DNA from: a virus
Direction: 5' to 3' (one strand)
Virus record (IMG/VR): IMGVR_UViG_3300033996_001317
Coordinates: 1 to 36,964 of that record
Length of the DNA stretch: 36,964 nucleotides
Under the pieces are notes generated by a model, which was not told the origin of the DNA, did not search any database, and was given only the letters and a program-made list of their open reading frames with translations. Position 1 is the stretch's first letter; each line of letters begins with the position of its first letter. Position numbers and translations under genes: made by a program. This document shows positions 3,793 through 20,779 of the stretch, in pieces.

Positions 3793-5397
3793 TCAATTTT
3801 TGATCGGAAATTTCACGTCGCGATAGATCCGAGACTTGTGAAACTCGAACACAATCTCATCAGCACAAATCGTCAAACCTGTCAACGGTCGAGAATACTC
3901 TACACGCAAAAGCCCCATAAAAAAAGCCCAATGCGCCCTGACTGCAGGTTCGCCCCGGTCGAATCGGATGGAACACGTCTCCCCGATTGTGGCTGTGATA
4001 GCAATGTTTTCCGCCAAGTAAACGTCGATCGTCGGATGCAAAACATCGTAAACAATTTTAATGGCTTCAATGATTGTCCGTGCAATCAACACCGGATTGC
4101 CGACCTCCCCCGAGGAGCTGACCGTATCAGCGCCGGGCACATCGAACTCGACTTCATCCAGCTTGATCGCAATTTTTCCCGCCTGAAGTCGATAACCAAA
4201 TCCCAGTTTGCTCAGCGGGACATTGCTCGAGCCTTCCACTTGGATATCGATCCTGCCGCTTGTTCCGAGGATGTCAACCAGCTCATGCGACCCGCTCACC
4301 AGCAATGCAGATTTGCCCCCGACTCGCTGCCAGCCGACTTTAATTTTCGACCCATCGGGAAAATACTGCCGTACAGAATCAAGCACCGACTGGATCATAC
4401 TGGCCCCGACAAAATGCCCTTCCGGCTGGCTCTCCGTGATTGCGGCACTGGCTTTTTCTGCAATTGCTTCCCGCAGACTGTCGAGCGATTGGCATCCGTA
4501 AATGACGTGCATCTCACCCGTTGGGCCCGTCCACGAGTGAAACGGATAACCCGCTTTGAGATTACTCGCAAGCCATTCCGCTGTCATCCATTTGGCCGGT
4601 CCCACCTGTCGCGTCACCACTATTGAAGCATCACCGGCTCCTATATTTTTGTGCGACCGATTGCACGGCGGACACGGGAATGGAGCGGTCCAAAATGTTA
4701 CCTGCGTGACCTGCGTAGCCAGTGCCCCCAGCTCCACCGGCATCAGTCCACGCATCAACGATACCGGCGTGTAGACCGATTGTCGCTGATCCAGTCGCGT
4801 GCCGTTAATCAAGCCGACGAGTCGCCCCTCATCGTCAAACAGCCCACCGCCTGACCTTCCCTCGACCTGCTGTCCGTCCGTCATGATTGTTCCTCTGTCT
4901 CGTGATATCAGTTTGTGATTGATCTTCGAACCGGATCCCACGCTGACCAGCGATTGCGGCAACTGATCGTCGCTGGCCATCACCGCAGCCGGGATGTCAC
5001 CGTTAATCGTCAGCACCGCGGCGTCTACCTTTCGATCCGATGCGACCAACACCGCGGGGAATGATTGCCCCCCCTGTCGCACCCGATACTGTGGACTGCT
5101 CACCCCTCGCGCAATGTGCTCGCACGTCAGTACGAGGCATTTGCCCCCGCTTGACCTTACGCACGTCCCTGACCCCGCGTAGCGCACCCGGCCACCGTCG
5201 ATGGCCTCCACGATCACGCTGGCTCGCATGGGATCGTCAGTGGTGGCCTGCTCGGGAGTCGCGGCAACTGCAATCACCAGCCGGAACTCACTCGACCCCA
5301 CCGGATCATCCGGGATCTCAAATTCGCTCGGGATCTCAAGCCCCTGACCCAAGATTGTTCTTGGAATCACCAGCATCAAAACAAATAGGCATTTCAT
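3793..5397 (-). CDS. Secreted trypsin-like serine protease fused to a CPPC thioredoxin-like domain
   Basis: 534 residues from the ATG at 5397, which overlaps the stop of the papain-like gene (ATGA). The open frame is longer upstream but only this start gives a signal peptide (MKCLFVLMLVIPRTILG). Residues about 38-225 form a trypsin-like (S1, HtrA-type) domain with all three catalytic residues visible: His94 in LTCEHIARG, Asp125 in DRKVDAAVL and Ser182 in EGRSGGGLF. Residues about 232-315 begin VTFWTAPFPCPPCNR, a thioredoxin-like start with CPPC at 242-245, ending near HVIYGCQSLDSL. Residues about 320-534 form a further beta-rich domain I do not recognise. The product should act outside the inner membrane. 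A protease joined to a redox-type domain is unusual in phages. Confidence 0.85.
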   Translation of the reverse strand: MKCLFVLMLVIPRTILGQGLEIPSEFEIPDDPVGSSEFRLVIAVAATPEQATTDDPMRASVIVEAIDGGRVRYAGSGTCVRSSGGKCLVLTCEHIARGVSSPQYRVRQGGQSFPAVLVASDRKVDAAVLTINGDIPAAVMASDDQLPQSLVSVGSGSKINHKLISRDRGTIMTDGQQVEGRSGGGLFDDEGRLVGLINGTRLDQRQSVYTPVSLMRGLMPVELGALATQVTQVTFWTAPFPCPPCNRSHKNIGAGDASIVVTRQVGPAKWMTAEWLASNLKAGYPFHSWTGPTGEMHVIYGCQSLDSLREAIAEKASAAITESQPEGHFVGASMIQSVLDSVRQYFPDGSKIKVGWQRVGGKSALLVSGSHELVDILGTSGRIDIQVEGSSNVPLSKLGFGYRLQAGKIAIKLDEVEFDVPGADTVSSSGEVGNPVLIARTIIEAIKIVYDVLHPTIDVYLAENIAITATIGETCSIRFDRGEPAVRAHWAFFMGLLRVEYSRPLTGLTICADEIVFEFHKSRIYRDVKFPIKN

Positions 5398-6179
5398 TCG
5401 GTTTGCTCCACGATGTACGCTCGATCCGCAATTTGCTGCGAGTATTCGACAACTCCAAGCCCGCCCTGACCCCATCCGGTGCCCCACGAATTCACAAACA
5501 ACACTCCGTAACGAGTGTAATCTGTTGCCGGTCGCGATGGGTATCGGTCGAGCACTGCCAGGAACAAAACCGCGTGGCCCCACCAATTGAGCGCGGCAAC
5601 TAGCGGATAGCCTAAGAATAACCTTGAGCCCTGCGCTTGGTGATCTCGGGGAATGGATCTGGCCATTGAGATTTTATTGCTTGCCGCATCGTCTCGCCAA
5701 CCGCCCCTGAAATCGCGGGAATTGGTCGTCAGCATCGGGACGAAATCTTCGCTCGCGACTCCCTGTGTCCGCATCCCTTCGAGCGCGGACTCAATGTAGT
5801 AGCCTCGATCTGTGTATCCAACAATTGGCGCCGCCACCGAAGACGGCGACAATCGGCGAAACGGTCTTGCCTCGACCTCTCGTTGCAGCATCATCCCCGC
5901 CACCGACGAAAACGCCCAGCAGTACGACGATTGACCCTGATTTAGCACGCCGATCCGCGAGCGTTGCCAAACATGATAGAGACTCGACTCATCCTCGTCT
6001 TGCTGCCGGATTGCCTCCGGCCATCGCTCATACGGGATCGTCAGCACCGGAGTCCCCGAGGAGACAACCCCCGGCATCTGATAGTCACTGGGCGGCGCAA
6101 GCGTCCCGCACAATCCCGGCTCACCTATCGTAGATTGCTTCCGTGGATCTACCACGTAGCCCCAATTGATGCTACTCAT
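5394..6179 (-). CDS. Papain-like (C1A) cysteine protease
   Basis: 261 residues with the full papain active site: oxyanion Gln81 six residues before the nucleophile Cys87 (NQGQSSYCWAFSSVAG), His202 in WWGHAVLFLAV and Asn230 in FVNSWGTGWGQGG. The catalytic domain covers about residues 65-261. The first 60 residues are Pro-rich and could act as a short pro-region. There is no signal peptide. The start overlaps the upstream gene by 8 bases and the stop overlaps the next start by ATGA, coupling it to a secreted serine protease. Possible roles are host lysis or envelope degradation, virion maturation, or entry. Its position among membrane proteins favours lysis, but this is inference. Confidence 0.88.
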   Translation of the reverse strand: MSSINWGYVVDPRKQSTIGEPGLCGTLAPPSDYQMPGVVSSGTPVLTIPYERWPEAIRQQDEDESSLYHVWQRSRIGVLNQGQSSYCWAFSSVAGMMLQREVEARPFRRLSPSSVAAPIVGYTDRGYYIESALEGMRTQGVASEDFVPMLTTNSRDFRGGWRDDAASNKISMARSIPRDHQAQGSRLFLGYPLVAALNWWGHAVLFLAVLDRYPSRPATDYTRYGVLFVNSWGTGWGQGGLGVVEYSQQIADRAYIVEQTE

Positions 6180-12212: not shown

Positions 12213-12730
12213 TGTTCGATTACCTTTTGTTGGTTTTGGAGACTGAATTCAAATAGCGTTTTTTTGTATTTGGCTTGGATTTCCAAATAACGTTGACGGC
12301 CAGTAGCAGACTCACGTTGCTTGCGTTGGTACTCTCGCTGTTTTGTGCGACCCTCGTCCGACTGACACCAATGGCGTTTGTACTCTCGCTGTCTTGCGCG
12401 AACTCCGTCCGACTGACGCCAATGGCGATTGTAATCTCGTCTTTTTGCGCGACCCTCGTCCGACTGATTGTACTTGGCTAGTGACTTTTTTTGGCATGGC
12501 TTGCATCTTCCGTTGCTATACCGATCTATCTCCCCGCATTTGCCGCATGGCTTTGTCAAATTGCGGTTTTGGCGAACTTTGTCCGACTGACGGCACGCTC
12601 GTATTTTTGCGCGACCCTTGTCCGACTGACGATACTTGGCTAGTGAAGTTTTGTGGCATGACTTGCATCTTCCGTTGCTATACCGATCCACATTGCCACA
12701 TTTCCCGCATGGCCTTGTCAGGTCCACCAC
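12173..12730 (-). CDS. Tandem zinc-finger protein with basic repeat array
   Basis: 185 residues. Two copies of a C4 zinc finger are present: C8, C11, C22, C25 and C62, C65, C76, C79, each with the core CGKCG(N/E)(V/I)DRYSNGRCK. They are followed by four or more repeats of QSD(E/G)GRAKQREY-type sequence, very basic and tyrosine-rich. Such CPXCG-type fingers plus YX-repeats are commonly seen next to HNH domains in phages, and an HNH gene lies immediately upstream, so DNA or RNA binding linked to that nuclease is a fair guess. The GTG start has GGAGGGGTGAAGC. The repeats are also visible in the DNA (12476-12559 against 12638-12722). Confidence 0.7.
   Translation of the reverse strand: MVDLTRPCGKCGNVDRYSNGRCKSCHKTSLAKYRQSDKGRAKIRACRQSDKVRQNRNLTKPCGKCGEIDRYSNGRCKPCQKKSLAKYNQSDEGRAKRRDYNRHWRQSDGVRARQREYKRHWCQSDEGRTKQREYQRKQRESATGRQRYLEIQAKYKKTLFEFSLQNQQKVIEQCQQKLTQPNEIS
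12476..12722 (-). repeat. Direct repeat encoding duplicated zinc finger
   Basis: 12476-12559 and 12638-12722 are direct repeats offset by 162 bases and share the finger coding sequence with few changes, including CTTGCATCTTCCGTTGCTAT on the plus strand. A shorter element, CCTCGTCCGACTGA or a near copy, recurs at about 12350, 12400, 12460, 12580 and 12620. A recent tandem duplication inside the gene is the simplest explanation. Confidence 0.8.
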
Positions 12731-16944: not shown

Positions 16945-17151
16945 TCAATTGTCCTCCGTCTTGACCTTGCCACGCTCGGCAAGCGAACCCTCGCTTTTAA
17001 TCTTGTCGTATACAGCCCTTCTGTGAATCACATGTTTTTTTGGTGCTTCAAACCCGAGTTGCACAACACCGTTTGCGTTTTTTACAATCCAAATAACGAT
17101 GTCATCGTTAATAAAAAACTGATCCCCGATCTTTCCTGACAGATTGAGCAT
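16945..17151 (-). CDS. csrA: CsrA-family RNA-binding translational regulator
   Basis: 68 residues, the usual CsrA length. The alignment to bacterial CsrA is clear by eye: MLNLSGKIGDQFFINDDIVI for MLILTRRVGE..., then GVVQLGFEAPKKHVIHRRAV with H43-R44 in register with the RNA-binding His-Arg of CsrA, and YDKIKSEG. Arg6 and Arg7 of the canonical protein are Gly6 and Lys7 here, so RNA affinity or specificity may differ. The ATG has GGAGGGGGGATGAC. CsrA dimers bind GGA motifs in leaders, usually blocking ribosome binding. This leader and related ones upstream contain GGGGGATGAC, which fits auto-control or control of neighbours; that is inference. Confidence 0.85.
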   Translation of the reverse strand: MLNLSGKIGDQFFINDDIVIWIVKNANGVVQLGFEAPKKHVIHRRAVYDKIKSEGSLAERGKVKTEDN

Positions 17152-17169
17152 GTCATCCCCCCTCCGTGG

Positions 17170-18042
17170 TTATTGTTTCGCGTCGAATTCCATGATTCCG
17201 TCACAGATGTTTTCGGCGCTGTCGCGGGCCAGTCGACCCCAAGTTTTCTCTGGGGCTCGCCCAGAATCCACCTGCTCTATCCCGCCACGCACACAAATCA
17301 GCGTGACCTCATCCATCATTCGTTCGCGTCGATGTCGCTGGTGTCGGTCCTCGTCCGATTCCAGATTCGTCGGTTTGTGGGCCGCGAGATCATTCAATCG
17401 CTTAAACAACTTCTGTTGCAGTGCCTCGTCGCTGGTCTCCGTCATTTCATCACCTTGTTTTTTGTTGGCCATTTCGAGTTCATTGATCCGCTCGCTGGCC
17501 CAAATAATCGACGCTGCGTCGTCGGATGTTGCCCGAAGATCTATGTGAATTCCATTTTTGAGATGTAAAACAACGTCCTCAAAAATCATCCTGTGTCCGG
17601 TGATTTTCGCCGCAGTCATATCCCCCATGTCATCCCCCTTGTTTTCTCGTGATTTTTCTGATGTTCCCGAGACGGCCGCCTGGGACAGCTTGATCTCGGC
17701 TTTCAGCTCATCGATCGTCGCATTACGTTCATGCAGGTGCGATTCAAGATCTGCAATTTTTTTCTCTATCTGCTCGAGAAACTCCGCCATTTCGCTTGCG
17801 TGCTTCTCAAGGCTTGCGATTTCTTCCTCTTTTTCACTGCGCGCACCAAGCATGGCTTTCGCCTGTTCCTCAAGGCTCGATTGCAGGCTTGCGATGCGTC
17901 GCTCTTTTTCACTGAACACACCAAGCATGGCTTTCGCCTGTTCCTCCAGATACTGGATGCGACCTTGGCCCCATTGCAGCGCTTCGCGGTTGTCTTGACT
18001 AATCCACGTCGAATCAAAAAACATCTCTCGCGGCGTTTCCAT
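17170..18042 (-). CDS. Coiled-coil protein that looks like three fused genes
   Basis: 290 residues from ATG at 18042 (AAGGGGGATGAC). Module 1 (to about 17630) is a coiled coil with a 25-residue repeat (EEQAKAMLG, SEKE, IASL). Module 2 starts at an internal ATG (17628), again with AAGGGGGATGAC, and encodes MTAAKITGHRMIFEDVVLHL onward. Module 3 starts at an internal ATG (17445) after AAGGTGATGAA and encodes a conserved-looking domain (DEVTLICVRGGIEQVDSGRA, then WGRLARDSAENICDGI). The in-frame linkers NKGDDM, NKGDDM and KKQGDEM are simply the translated ribosome sites. Nested translation of shorter products is likely. Function unknown; possibly regulatory. Confidence 0.7.
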   Translation of the reverse strand: METPREMFFDSTWISQDNREALQWGQGRIQYLEEQAKAMLGVFSEKERRIASLQSSLEEQAKAMLGARSEKEEEIASLEKHASEMAEFLEQIEKKIADLESHLHERNATIDELKAEIKLSQAAVSGTSEKSRENKGDDMGDMTAAKITGHRMIFEDVVLHLKNGIHIDLRATSDDAASIIWASERINELEMANKKQGDEMTETSDEALQQKLFKRLNDLAAHKPTNLESDEDRHQRHRRERMMDEVTLICVRGGIEQVDSGRAPEKTWGRLARDSAENICDGIMEFDAKQ

Positions 18043-18100
18043 GTCATCCCCCTTGTTTTTTCGTGATTTCCCAGATGTTCCCGAAACAGACTTCGGGAAC
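17628..18100 (-). repeat. Direct repeat of leader sequence at two module starts, plus 75-base repeat
   Basis: 17628-17680 and 18040-18092 (plus strand CATGTCATCCCCCTTGTTTT, then TCGTGATTT and GATGTTCCCGA) are near identical. Each ends a module with VSGTS(E/G)KSR(E/K)NKGDDM in translation. Within module 1 the element CACCAAGCATGGCTTTCGCC occurs at 17844 and again at 17919, a 75-base period matching a 25-residue protein repeat. The leader pair could recombine and explain the fusion. Confidence 0.8.
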
Positions 18101-18129
18101 AGAAAACACCCCTCGCAGAATCGCAATTG

Positions 18130-18267
18130 TCAGACGATCGGCTCCGGCGTGAACCCAGCAACACGCTGCACCGGCTGCGAGGGATGTCCACTTGATTTGA
18201 ACGGCCGGCGGGAATACCTCAGGGAATCATTCCCCGATTCGACCGCACCGGCTCGGCCATCCTTGAT
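18130..18267 (-). pseudogene. 45-codon open frame separated by TGA from an upstream TM peptide
   Basis: After the TGA at 18268-18270 that ends the 28-residue TM peptide, the same frame continues for 45 codons: IKDGRAGAVESGNDSLRYSR, then RPFKSSGHPSQPVQRVAGFT and PEPIV, ending at TGA 18130-18132. It has no ATG, GTG or TTG start near its beginning. The composition is strongly protein-like. Likely a nonsense-split gene or a fragment left by recombination; readthrough cannot be excluded. Confidence 0.4.
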
Positions 18268-18354
18268 TCATCGCATTTTGTTCGCGGCCCAGATCGCGGC
18301 GACGATGATTTCCACCACCGAAAGCCCAGCAATCCACGCAAGTATTGTGATCAT
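18268..18354 (-). CDS. 28-residue single-TM peptide
   Basis: Reads MITILAWIAGLSVVEIIVAA then IWAANKMR. The ATG overlaps the stop of the HTH gene (ATGA), with AAGGTCAAAA as ribosome site. About 20 hydrophobic residues are followed by a positive tail, so a small membrane peptide. It may be the N-terminus of a longer protein now cut by TGA. Confidence 0.5.
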   Translation of the reverse strand: MITILAWIAGLSVVEIIVAAIWAANKMR

Positions 18355-18623
18355 TTTTTGACCTTTTTTGATTTAATCCAATCGCAAAAATCGCTCCCGA
18401 CGATGAAAACTACCTGCCCGTTTTTGACTGACGTCAGCCCCTGCCTGATCCATCCGCGAATCGTCCTGCGGCTCGATCCCACGGCAGCCGCCAGCGCGTC
18501 GATGGTGTAGGTTTTGTCGGGATCAATTGGCTCAGGATGTCGCGTCACTTGTGATGTGCTCGATTTGGTATGGATTTGGTATTGATTTCGTCCCAAATTA
18601 GCATCGGCAGTTTTTGCCGTCAA
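18351..18623 (-). CDS. Excisionase/AlpA-like helix-turn-helix protein
   Basis: 90 residues from a TTG at 18623; no ATG or GTG is available and the ribosome site is weak, so the start is uncertain. Residues about 38-85 (YTIDALAAAVGSSRRTIRGW, IRQGLTSVKNGQVVFIVG, DFCDWIKSK) match a MerR/Xis-type winged helix: two short helices, a turn and a beta wing. It could be a recombination directionality factor or an early transcription factor. No integrase is visible in this window to pair with it. Confidence 0.65.
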   Translation of the reverse strand: MTAKTADANLGRNQYQIHTKSSTSQVTRHPEPIDPDKTYTIDALAAAVGSSRRTIRGWIRQGLTSVKNGQVVFIVGSDFCDWIKSKKVKK

Positions 18624-18641
18624 TCTCGACCCGTGAGGAAT

Positions 18642-18908
18642 TCAGGATTTTGACTTGGCCAACTTTTTCTTTTGAGCCAGCAAAGTCCTTTCCGTGAATT
18701 TGTGCCCCGGCTTCGGCCCCATGCTTGGACGCGGCAGGAATTTGTGGGCTCTTCCCACAGTTCCAATCGCAATTAGACCTTGACGAATGAGATGTTCGAT
18801 TGCCTCCGATCGATTCAGACTCCTGAGAACGACTGAGCCAGCGATAATTTTTAGCGTGTCCGGCATCAGGCGGATGCTGATTGCCGGGGACAGTGGTTTT
18901 TCGGTCAT
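18642..18908 (-). CDS. Ribbon-helix-helix-like protein
   Basis: 88 residues. The N-terminal part (AISIRLMPDTLKIIAGSVVL, then RSLNRSEAIEHLIRQGL) has the ribbon-helix-helix pattern of CopG/Arc repressors: a beta strand with alternating residues and two helices with the SRSEAI-like turn. The C-terminus is basic (KLAKSKS). GAAAG lies 8 bases before the ATG; modest. An early repressor or plasmid-type regulator is likely. Confidence 0.65.
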   Translation of the reverse strand: MTEKPLSPAISIRLMPDTLKIIAGSVVLRSLNRSEAIEHLIRQGLIAIGTVGRAHKFLPRPSMGPKPGHKFTERTLLAQKKKLAKSKS

Positions 18909-18927
18909 GATTTCTTTCGGTTTTATG

Positions 18928-18960
18928 GTTAGTGACCCGCCACAAATGTGACGGGTTGTC
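18928..18960 (-). repeat. Hairpin leader element, copy 1 (diverged)
   Basis: Reads, on the minus strand, GACAACCCGTCACATTTGTG then GCGGGTCACTAAC. The CCCG/CGGG and CACA/TGTG arms can pair. It is a shortened copy of the three elements upstream and lies at the end of the 25-residue ORF, before the ribbon-helix-helix gene. Confidence 0.7.
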
Positions 18961-19006
18961 CTCGGAATTCTCCGTCAAATAGTTTTGTTATGATTCTTTC
19001 GTTCAT
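18929..19006 (-). CDS. 25-residue ORF ending in the hairpin element
   Basis: Reads MNERIITKLFDGEFRGQPVT then FVAGH, with a strong AAAGGAGAAATA before the ATG. It lies just after the zinc-ribbon gene. The last third is encoded by the hairpin repeat itself, so the frame may have been cut short when the element entered. Confidence 0.45.
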   Translation of the reverse strand: MNERIITKLFDGEFRGQPVTFVAGH

Positions 19007-19017
19007 TATTTCTCCTT

Positions 19018-19182
19018 TCAAATGTCGTCACGACGAGTCTGTAAACAGTCTGCACACAGCGTCACCCATTCAGTACGGTCACATACTTCATAAATGTAAG
19101 GGTCGATAGTGTGTTCGACTAAATCGACACGTCTGCACATGTCGCACGTGCCTTGTTTAAGTTTTGGTAATGGTTGATTCAT
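19018..19182 (-). CDS. Small zinc-ribbon protein
   Basis: 54 residues from ATG at 19182 (AGGAGACAAA). A GTG at 19227 in the same frame has an equally strong GAGGAGGAAATC and would add 15 residues (NQGFRKHNYPSGDK); both may be used. CDMC and CADC pairs, 26 residues apart, form a C4 zinc ribbon (TCDMCRRVDLVE, then WVTLCADCLQTR). A nucleic-acid or protein-binding role is typical. Confidence 0.7.
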   Translation of the reverse strand: MNQPLPKLKQGTCDMCRRVDLVEHTIDPYIYEVCDRTEWVTLCADCLQTRRDDI

Positions 19183-19241
19183 TTTGTCTCCTGATGGATA
19201 ATTGTGTTTCCTAAATCCTTGATTCACGATTTCCTCCTCTC

Positions 19242-19280
19242 GTTAGTTGGCCCGCAGCACATGCGACGGGCTTGGGTTGT
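19242..19280 (-). repeat. Hairpin leader element, copy 2
   Basis: Minus strand ACAACCCAAGCCCGTCGCAT then GTGCTGCGGGCCAACTAAC. GCCCG and CGGGC arms enclose a GCATGTGC-type centre. It lies between the stop of the 105-residue gene and the ribosome site of the zinc-ribbon gene. Confidence 0.85.
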
Positions 19281-19597
19281 CACATCAGGCCGGATTGCAT
19301 TTGCTGGTGTCGCCAGTGCGTCACGGCCGAGCACGATTTCAGGCTGGCGGTCCGGTGCCGCCAGACTACGCTGCAGGTGTTCCCGAACTCGTCGGGGGAA
19401 TGATTGATTGCGATTGTTTTCTGTCCGTCCGCCCAGCGGATGATCTCCACGGACAATGCGGAGAATCCATATTTTTTACCTATTCGGCGGGCAAACTTAC
19501 CCTGCCGAACTGTGATTTTGGGACCGTCCATCGTATGTGCTCTGAAGTCCACTTCTCGTCCACCAAATCGCAATGACGTTGCAATCTGTGTTTTCAT
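19280..19597 (-). CDS. Small protein of unknown function between hairpin elements
   Basis: 105 residues, ATG preceded by AAGGAACGAGACC. Basic, with MKTQIATSLRFGGREVDFRA, ITVRQGKFARRIGKKYGFSA and ADGQKTIAINHSPD. It appears to be a small alpha/beta protein of the accessory early type. Copy 2 of the hairpin begins at its stop codon and copy 3 precedes its ribosome site. Confidence 0.65.
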   Translation of the reverse strand: MKTQIATSLRFGGREVDFRAHTMDGPKITVRQGKFARRIGKKYGFSALSVEIIRWADGQKTIAINHSPDEFGNTCSVVWRHRTASLKSCSAVTHWRHQQMQSGLM

Positions 19598-19616
19598 GGT
19601 CTCGTTCCTTGTTTGA

Positions 19617-19657
19617 GTTAGTTAGCCCCCCGCACATGCGACGGGCTTGGGGTTGTT
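19617..19657 (-). repeat. Hairpin leader element, copy 3
   Basis: Minus strand AACAACCCCAAGCCCGTCGC then ATGTGCGGGGGGCTAACTAAC. The CGCA/TGCG arms flank a TG centre. Starts right at the stop of the 98-residue gene and is followed by the ribosome site of the 105-residue gene. Confidence 0.85.
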
Positions 19658-19952
19658 ACTTCTGCGCCGCGAGCCTAAGCTTCCGGCGCACGTCTTGCCG
19701 CACGTGTACCAGTTCTCGTGCGGCGTCCAATTTGTCGCACTCTTCTCCGATCAGCACGTTCCAGCCATTGGACCACCGTGATCCGTCGTGGATTCGTTCG
19801 TCGGTTTGCGGAACCTCGTGGTCCGCGACCCGGACGGCAACGCCGGTTTGCTCATGTCGATAATACACGCTGCCAGATCGGCTTTTGTTGTATCGCACGA
19901 ATCCCATGCGACGGAGGCAGGCGAGCGCGTCGCGATAAAATTGGCTTGCCAT
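19656..19952 (-). CDS. Small protein, HicA-like fold possible
   Basis: 98 residues; AAGGAACGAGACA upstream of the ATG. FYRDALACLRRMGFVRYNKS, then GSVYYRHEQTGVAVRVADHE recalls the helix, GF turn, strand and strand order of HicA-like double-stranded RNA binding domains, but the catalytic-type histidine position is not certain. The C-terminus is helical and basic. No antitoxin partner is recognisable, so I do not call a toxin. Confidence 0.6.
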   Translation of the reverse strand: MASQFYRDALACLRRMGFVRYNKSRSGSVYYRHEQTGVAVRVADHEVPQTDERIHDGSRWSNGWNVLIGEECDKLDAARELVHVRQDVRRKLRLAAQK

Positions 19953-19969
19953 TGTCTCGTTCCTTTCAA

Positions 19970-20008
19970 GTTAGTTGGCCCGCCGCACATGTGACGGGCT
20001 TGGGTTGT
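19970..20008 (-). repeat. Hairpin leader element, copy 4
   Basis: Minus strand ACAACCCAAGCCCGTCACAT then GTGCGGCGGGCCAACTAAC. Arms GCCCG/CGGGC with the palindromic centre CACATGTG. Lies between the 122-residue gene and the ribosome site of the 98-residue gene. Confidence 0.85.
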
Positions 20009-20013
20009 GTTGA

Positions 20014-20382
20014 TCAGCGGACGAGAGCGGCTCGGCGAGCTCCCTCAGCGACTCCGACGAATTGATATCCGTCCCAGCCACGATTCAGGCTTTCGACATA
20101 GTTCTTATTTTTCTGGGCTTCCGTTTTTGCGGTGACCAGCAATTGCTGTAGGGCAGCAATTGCTGTCCGTCGTGACATCGCAGACTCATATTTTAGCTTG
20201 CGAGTATACCCGGCACCGGAATCTGCGTCTCCGACCGTGTATTGCGTCCCGTCGAGTCGTTCAAATACGGACCAAGTAAAAAACTGTGGGTCTAGCGAAT
20301 GCGTCCCACTGTTTGTGGCAACGATTTCATCAGTGGACAGCATTTTAATTTCTTCAACAATTTGATCGGCAGTCTTGGTCAT
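20014..20382 (-). CDS. First gene of the leftward early operon, unknown function
   Basis: 122 residues from ATG at 20382, chosen because AGGACCGAGACC matches the ribosome site style of the next genes; a GTG at 20421 would leave almost no leader after the promoter. Begins MTKTADQIVEEIKMLSTDEI, contains FTWSVFERLDGTQYTVGDAD and a helical Arg/Ala-rich middle. Being first after the strong promoter suggests an early takeover or regulatory role; no family recognised. Confidence 0.7.
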   Translation of the reverse strand: MTKTADQIVEEIKMLSTDEIVATNSGTHSLDPQFFTWSVFERLDGTQYTVGDADSGAGYTRKLKYESAMSRRTAIAALQQLLVTAKTEAQKNKNYVESLNRGWDGYQFVGVAEGARRAALVR

Positions 20383-20438
20383 GGTCTCGGTCCTTTTTTG
20401 GGTTTGGTTCGCGTCGGCCACGTTGGCTCGACATGTGT

Positions 20439-20466
20439 ATTATACTCTCTACTTCGACATTGTCCA
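20439..20466 (-). promoter_or_regulatory. Leftward sigma70-type promoter of the early block
   Basis: On the minus strand, TGGACA (20461-20466), a 16-base spacer, and a perfect TATAAT (20439-20444). Transcription would begin near 20432, about 50 bases before the first ATG. Box match and place right after the late terminator make it the best promoter in the window. Confidence 0.75.
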
Positions 20467-20482
20467 CTCCAGTCATGCAGTT

Positions 20483-20559
20483 TTTCGGAAGATTTTTCAG
20501 GATTTTCCGAAACCCCTATTTTTCATGGGTAATTCTCACGATACAATCTTCCGAGATTG
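20483..20559. promoter_or_regulatory. Operator-like inverted repeats and weak rightward promoter
   Basis: TTTCGGAA (20483-20490) and TTCCGAAA (20505-20512) form a perfect inverted repeat spaced by 14 bases. CAATCT and AGATTG (20544-20559) form a second around TTCC. A plus-strand TACAAT (20542-20547) with TTTTCA 16 bases upstream could be a rightward promoter overlapped by the second repeat. A regulator binding here could switch between directions. Confidence 0.45.
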
Positions 20560-20587
20560 GAAAAACACCCGATTCCAGGAGAAGATC

Positions 20588-20779
20588 ATGCGTGAAATCG
20601 GACTGATTGCGGCCACCTGCGTCATCGGCTGGACCCTCGCGGCTGGCGTTGGATCGGTGCAAGAGATGAGGCAGTGGGCGGCTGTGGATGCGAGCGCGCA
20701 AAAACAGGCCGAACTCAGTTGGTCCGGCCTGCCTGCTGGCGACTTAATTGGGATCCAGATGTCTCCCGCGACTAGGTAA
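20588..20779 (+). CDS. Possible small membrane or secreted protein, only plus-strand gene
   Basis: 63 residues. AGGAGAAGATC precedes the ATG. The N-terminus (MREIGLIAATCVIGWTLAAG) is a signal-like or TM segment; the remainder (SVQEMRQWAAVDASAQKQAE) is polar. It lies after operator-like repeats and ends 8 bases into the convergent fibre gene. Part of it overlaps the late terminator on the other strand, which constrains the sequence, so it may be an accidental frame. Confidence 0.45.
   Translation: MREIGLIAATCVIGWTLAAGVGSVQEMRQWAAVDASAQKQAELSWSGLPAGDLIGIQMSPATR
20700..20732 (-). terminator. Rho-independent terminator of the late operon
   Basis: Minus strand CAGGCCG and CGGCCTG, extended by GAC and GTT with one G-T pair, form a 10-pair stem with a 7-base loop, followed directly by six Ts. 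It sits 40 bases after the stop of the fibre gene, closing the structural transcript. Confidence 0.85.

Follow-up and report, generated by a model that had tools for sequence, protein, structure and literature searches.

A repeated hairpin linker between small early genes of an uncultured phage and its possible part in gene exchange

Four copies of a short hairpin element, each 38-41 nt long, separate successive small genes in a single leftward early operon of the window, i.e., the whole stretch of DNA analysed here, a single uncultured virus record of 36,964 bases. Full copies are also present in two further phages, likewise uncultured, where they join different genes. On balance, the evidence leans, though not strongly, towards these elements being a mobile intercistronic linker that serves as a homology joint for the exchange of early genes and that probably has a role in RNA as well. 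The preliminary description offered three readings of the repeats, as RNA-processing sites, as regulator-binding sites or as recombination joints for swapping small gene cassettes. The last is now the best supported of the three, because the linker is kept in two phages with unrelated flanking genes and because one of these phages carries half of an element at another gene junction.

The early operon and its four linkers

The operon is read leftward from a strong sigma-70-like promoter into a row of small genes, G1-G5. Its features are listed here in the order of transcription.

20439-20466, minus strand: sigma-70-like early promoter, TGGACA - 16 nt - TATAAT, 11 of 12 consensus matches, the best site in 17000-20700
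20413-20432, minus strand: leader hairpin GTCGAGCCAACGTGGCCGAC, loop AACGU, a predicted fold just downstream of the promoter
20380-20393, minus strand: ribosome site of type alpha, GGACCGAGACCATG, of the first early gene
20014-20382, minus strand: G1, 122 aa from this ATG, no family found
19969-20009, minus strand: linker copy 4 (class I), ACAACCCAAG, hairpin GCCCGTCACATGTGCGGCGGGC with one A.C mismatch, CCAACTAAC; 62.9 bits
19950-19963, minus strand: ribosome site of type alpha, GGAACGAGACAATG, of G2
19656-19952, minus strand: G2, 98 aa, weak HicA-like match
19616-19656, minus strand: linker copy 3 (class I), hairpin GCCCGTCGCATGTGCGGGGGGC with one G.G mismatch; 57.5 bits
19595-19608, minus strand: ribosome site of type alpha, GGAACGAGACCATG, of G3
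19280-19597, minus strand: G3, 105 aa, no family found
19241-19281, minus strand: linker copy 2 (class I), hairpin GCCCGTCGCATGTGCTGCGGGC with one C.U mismatch; 61.7 bits
19225-19241, minus strand: ribosome site of type beta, GAGAGGAGGAAATC, and start codon GTG of G4
19018-19227, minus strand: G4, 69 aa, no convincing family
18929-19006, minus strand: possible 25-codon ORF (MNERIITKLFDGEFRGQPVTFVAGH) with its own AAAGGAG site, read from the sequence
about 18927-18966, minus strand: linker copy 1 (class I); 45.6 bits with the covariance model
18642-18908, minus strand: G5, 88 aa, weak transcriptional-repressor match (phrog_4738, E 7e-5)

The HicA-like match of G2 is below the Pfam cut-off (E 0.0084, 16.6 bits vs a cut-off of 27). 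Downstream of G5 the window carries RecE-like, SMC-like and RecT-like genes, and the upstream part of the record encodes a lambda-family portal (PF05136), a GpA-type terminase and a head protein-protease. G1 contains CAGCAATTGCTGT twice within 20137-20166, 17 bp apart, each nearly palindromic.

Repeat finding recovered three 39-nt copies (19242-19280, 19617-19655 and 19970-20008, of which the second and third share 85% and 95% identity with the first), together with a 23-nt family of four members, the additional one being 18933-18955. The four-copy hairpin element between early genes, as first described, is real: a 27-28-nt pattern fitting all the copies matches 4 times in the window vs 0 times in each of 100 dinucleotide shuffles, which rules out a chance origin. 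When the window was scored, with filters off, with a covariance model built from its four copies and the copy of the related phage L007, the only further hits below E 0.6 were two of these stems read on the opposite strand (E 0.15-0.16), and we therefore count only four copies in the window.

Each copy is a 9-bp hairpin with the loop AUGU or AUUU. Copies 2-4 are flanked by ACAACCC(C)AAG and YAACTAAC and read, in the sense of the transcript, as stop codon, 8-14 nt that include AACCC(C)AA, hairpin, YAACTAAC and ribosome site, with the hairpin consensus GCCCGUC-R-C-AUGU-G-C-GGCGGGC or a one-base variant of it. Copy 1, a perfect 9-bp hairpin (ACCCGTCACATTTGTGGCGGGT, loop AUUU) with two compensatory pairs, is diverged and shorter, its 5' flank being gone and its 3' flank lacking one base. 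The copies had been placed just after stops, and in three of the four a stop codon does precede the stem, at a distance of 8-14 nt, whereas copy 1 overlaps the 3' end (the last codons) of the possible 25-codon ORF instead. Their strand has to be corrected, since it is the minus strand in every case, so that the copies are in the sense of leftward transcription. The distance from the end of the stem to the next start codon is 22-27 nt in all four.

The ribosome sites behind the copies, said to be alike, are so behind copies 3 and 4 (AAGGAACGAGAC) but not behind copy 2 (GAGAGGAGGAAATC) or copy 1 (CCGAAAGAAATC); a sequence near-identical to AAGGAACGAGAC, AAGGACCGAGAC, precedes the first gene of the operon, G1. 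The alpha site (AAGGAMCGAGACMATG) thus stands behind copies 3 and 4 and the promoter leader, the beta site (GAGAGGAGGAAATCRTG) behind copy 2 and the element of L007, and copy 1 has CCGAAAGAAATCATG. The 14-base alpha pattern has exact matches in the window, L007 and a further phage, L021, behind three types of hairpin; therefore, hairpin and ribosome site occur in different combinations.

One linker beside unrelated genes

The element was searched for in 2.9 million viral contigs and, separately, in genome contigs, and genuine copies turned up in three further records, L009, L007 and L021. L009 is the window phage again (100% identity over 11,255 bp) and is not independent for that reason. Seven viral stretches were matched at first, of which only L007 and L009 are real, the others (L005, L006, L008, L010 and L011) having no 3' arm; another viral scan gave this same pair, and one with the stem left free gave 13 stretches, with L007, L009 and L021 real and the other ten without the element. 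The class I copy of L021 scores 51 bits with the covariance model. The stems of the full copies in L007 and L021 lie 14 nt from a stop codon and 22 and 27 nt, respectively, before a start codon.

L007 is an uncultured relative of the window phage which has the same early promoter and different early genes; its tail-side genes and promoter share 77-82% DNA identity with those of the window, and the leader hairpin is kept in it with one deletion. The linker after its first early gene is 94.5% identical over 55 bp to copy 2, ribosome site and start codon included. The L021 linker, which lies less than 500 bp from a contig end, is 92% identical over 50 bp to copy 4. The linkers of both phages (92-95% identical to those of the window) are thus closer to the window than is the related coding DNA of L007.

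L021 and the window share no protein by blastp at 1e-3, the only matches being short ones at the linkers, and their head genes are of different types: a Terminase_6-type terminase and a PF04860 portal in L021, GpA-type and PF05136 in the window. Pairwise comparison of the 13 small proteins around the linkers of the three phages gave no match better than E 0.05 (best E 0.08). Since the linkers are 92-95% identical between flanking proteins that do not match, the linker is conserved independently of the genes that it joins. Among the phages searched, we found no relative with the same small genes and a different linker; what was found instead is the same linker with different genes.

L007 also contains, at 12610-12637, half of a class I element which ends inside the loop and lies after the second early gene, before a pentapeptide-repeat-like gene. 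This half-element looks like a scar of recombination or deletion.

In L021, each of the first two early genes that are visible is preceded by a second form of the hairpin, class II (minus strand, 8845-8830 and 8625-8607). The stems, CCUCGUC-AACGU-GGCGGGG and CCCCGUC-AACGU-GGCGGGG, are both followed by an alpha ribosome site, and their loop AACGU is that of the leader hairpin of the window. The outer stem is the same as in class I except for a switched base pair at the foot and a change from C-G to U-G in one of the two.

Other searches for relatives yielded little. Two alignment searches (A1 and A2) returned nothing beyond the window phage itself, the L007 contig and one more contig (L015 and L017), a 95% identical fragment that stops short of the early region, and the early promoter pattern was found only in L007 and L009. 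Single-protein searches gave no relatives for RecE and the same phage only for G2, which has no match among named phages either; g2 of L007 has a half-length match in two Streptococcus suis phages. In genome contigs, A1 returned one distant relative of the tail-side protein of the window, at 35% identity, in an Acidobacteria-binned contig (L019), with apparently structural-type ORFs in the 3.9 kb downstream of it and no covariance-model match up to E 10 at the locus. This relative occupies 4487-5656 of its contig and carries the motif GPNHWDN.

The search of the core in related phages and hosts that the preliminary description proposed was thus productive on the phage side, through L007 and L021; on the host side, the strict pattern, which requires the fourth C of the stem and would miss the L021 form, has 0 copies in genome contigs covering 84,980 species by one genome each. 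In the search for the element among named phages and plasmids, Gordonia phage Gsput1 (two records, E 3) and 13 plasmid records (E 3-9) were taken as chance matches. The host result also bears on whether the elements might be REP/BIME-like palindromes moved by a Y1 transposase, which they resemble in being short, GC-rich, imperfect, intergenic and present in several copies. We consider this highly improbable: besides the 0 copies of the strict pattern in those genomes, the elements have a single orientation and a fixed place between stop and ribosome site, and no Y1 transposase was found in the three partial phage records.

Integron attC sites are recombined by a tyrosine integrase and have complementary outer core sites. 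No integrase (PF00589) was found in the three partial phage records, and the outer flanks of the linker, compared by eye, are not complementary in the manner of attC.

Pairing of the stem and regulatory readings

The minimum-energy folds of the four window copies are hairpins of -14.7 to -17.7 kcal/mol for 61-66 nt. Their z-scores relative to shuffled sequences are just -0.7 to -2.1, and because they are this modest it is the repetition of the element, and not the fold of any single copy, that constitutes the strong signal.

The preliminary description proposed covariation of the arms as a check, and its outcome is divided. The outer seven pairs of eight hairpins (class I and class II) were counted on a hand alignment, because MAFFT with class II included slid the class II stems; 53 of 56 cells are paired vs 48.3 expected when the same numbers of changes are placed at random (P 0.0026). 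Copy 1 alone has four changes in the stem and keeps all nine pairs (P 0.008), and these P values are optimistic, since the null treats non-independent copies as independent and was made after the copies had been seen. Compensatory pairs are present at the foot of the stem (G-C, A-U and C-G) and in the inner stem (G-C and A-U). The six class I copies taken alone, however, do not keep pairs significantly (P 0.14), and with five class I copies 40 of 500 shuffles reach the observed pairing score. Of the six class I copies, four contain mismatches in the stem: copies 2, 3 and 4 have one each, and the L021 copy, which is predicted not to fold as a hairpin, has two. A U.G pair is kept in all eight hairpins, which fits RNA better than a DNA palindrome.

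These results bear on the RNA-processing and regulator-site readings, which they do not establish: the covariation favours a hairpin that is kept, but the L021 copy is predicted unfolded and neither a promoter nor an intrinsic terminator was found at the four copies. It could be that the hairpin and its flanks are recognised in early mRNA by a phage or host protein or by a nuclease and that the element thereby coordinates translation or stabilises each cistron, its spread between phages being merely a by-product. The single orientation of the copies, their narrow distances to stop (8-14 nt in the five full copies) and start, the conserved unpaired flanks, the compensatory changes and the constant U.G pair all speak for such a regulatory RNA. 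We nevertheless think it rather unlikely as the whole explanation, because there is no Rfam match (in the whole window at gathering level, or in 18880-20480 at E up to 5), the L021 copy appears unable to fold and no candidate binding protein common to the three phages was found. An RNA role that is added to the function of a recombination joint is likely, because copy 1 and class II keep their pairing while the sequence changes and because the position between stop and start is narrow.

If the element acted as DNA, the palindrome CACATGTG might be an operator or stoperator-like site bound at the promoter and at the intergenic copies by a phage repressor, e.g., G5 with its weak repressor match. 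CACATGT does lie directly behind the -10 box, at 20431-20437, in both the window and L007. This heptamer is, however, not enriched (8 occurrences in the window vs 5.0 expected) and among the four copies it is present in copy 4 only; moreover, the T.G position breaks the DNA symmetry in each of the eight hairpins, and the flanks, which an operator does not need, are conserved too. An operator thus appears improbable to us.

The elements could, finally, be weak intrinsic terminators or attenuators, the class I copies being terminators that have lost a former U-run. An intrinsic terminator consists of a GC-rich hairpin and a U-run; this combination is present in one class II hairpin of L021 (8625-8607), which is followed by CTTTTCT and scores terminator-like, but none of the class I copies has a U-run and 0 of the 4 window copies score as a terminator. 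Four early genes in a row would moreover be silenced unless antitermination acts, and we hold this explanation to be very improbable. Nor did a promoter scan locate a promoter within any of the four copies; the weak match closest to them is at 19021-18993. An A/T-rich 13-bp inverted repeat, terminator-like on the plus strand, lies just upstream of the early promoter at 20483-20512, and a similar sequence is found at the same place in L007.

Known systems and a possible route of gene exchange

The closest parallel in place and copy pattern is with the ESAS/SAS elements of cluster K mycobacteriophages, inverted repeats located just upstream of a conserved ribosome-site motif (PMC3203893; PMC11373665; PMC12699233). 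As described there, they too occur in several copies per genome, mostly in one orientation and before non-structural genes of different families, and are almost absent outside their phage group; the placement is shared by all four window copies, which stand 22-27 nt upstream of a start codon, each on the minus strand. The sequences are unrelated, ESAS having 17-bp repeats and the 13-bp GGGATAGGAGCCC at the ribosome site, where the phages studied here have AAGGAMCGAGACMATG, GAGAGGAGGAAATCRTG or, at copy 1, CCGAAAGAAATCATG. The authors state that changes in the ESAS repeats do not generally support RNA pairing (PMC3203893), and the later work describes putative sigma-A promoters in ESAS (PMC11373665; PMC12699233), whereas pairing survives most of the changes in the linker and no promoter was detected within its four copies. 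The linker, unlike ESAS/SAS, is also shared by phages whose head genes are unrelated.

In T4-type phages, each promoter-early stem-loop (PeSL) cassette comprises an early promoter and a terminator stem-loop, and the same cassette stands beside different genes in different phages. PeSL has been presented as a repeated intergenic stem-loop cassette with a proposed role in gene shuffling (PMC4503421). The linker is likewise found next to different genes in the window, L007 and L021, but it combines a hairpin that has no U-run with a ribosome site, and a single strong promoter (20439-20466) serves the whole operon from upstream. The linker thus resembles both ESAS/SAS and PeSL and is neither, since one defining feature of each was checked and is not present here.

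Stoperators are 13-bp sites of transcription regulation, and they too are repeated in a set orientation within the short intergenic spaces of a phage genome; the linker shows no sign of such a regulatory part. Those of cluster A mycobacteriophages are mentioned in PMC3203893. Lambdoid boundary sequences are short conserved junction sequences proposed as targets of homologous recombination in the generation of mosaicism (PMC3029335), and differ in that here one sequence with a hairpin is repeated at several junctions of one genome. Neither a topic search nor three 17-base strings found a published description of the element in the open-licence literature, and it is apparently undescribed.

In the homology-joint reading that we prefer, the linker would fill the interval between two small early genes, from the stop codon of the first to the start codon of the second, and consist of unpaired ACAACCC(C)AAG, the 9-bp hairpin, unpaired YAACTAAC and the ribosome site. 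Recombination between linker copies would exchange or add one gene, and the neighbours of that gene would keep working stop and start signals. The RecE/RecT pair of the phage is a plausible agent; RecT was found only in the window record and not in the L007 contig or L021, both of which are fragments. In the RNA, the end of the hairpin, at 22-27 nt before the start, would fall close to where the initiating ribosome is expected to have its upstream edge, so that the hairpin could shield the ribosome site and separate the translation of adjacent cistrons.

This reading explains most of what is seen, namely the several copies per genome, the identity from stop to start, the unrelated neighbours and heads, the combinations of hairpin with ribosome site and the half-element. 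Against it stand the facts that 0 recombination events have been seen directly and that the copies are known from three lineages; the linker would likewise persist between different genes if it were a regulatory site under strong selection. In the comparison with L007, in which the half-element is found, identity drops beyond the linker, and the genomes are few. The operator, terminator, REP-like and purely regulatory readings are weaker because of the points counted against each of them above.

A broader proposal, which we put forward tentatively and regard as possible rather than probable, is that the linker is a standard one, common to unrelated phages, perhaps of one host group, and that it makes early genes plug-and-play. 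Any small gene framed by linkers would be expressed at once and could move from phage to phage through recombination of the RecET type, and the hairpin (class I, class II or leader) and the ribosome site (alpha or beta) would be exchangeable halves.

The question touched here is how phages gain small early genes without harm to gene expression, and a linker with ribosome site that is 92-95% identical between otherwise unrelated phages is a concrete candidate for the joint. The linker may also be used as a DNA tag for small early genes, possibly genes of host takeover, that family models do not recognise. Repeats of another kind are present elsewhere in the window, at 17625-18087, where the region of a coiled-coil-like gene contains internal direct repeats of 49-65 bp that are 86-90% identical.
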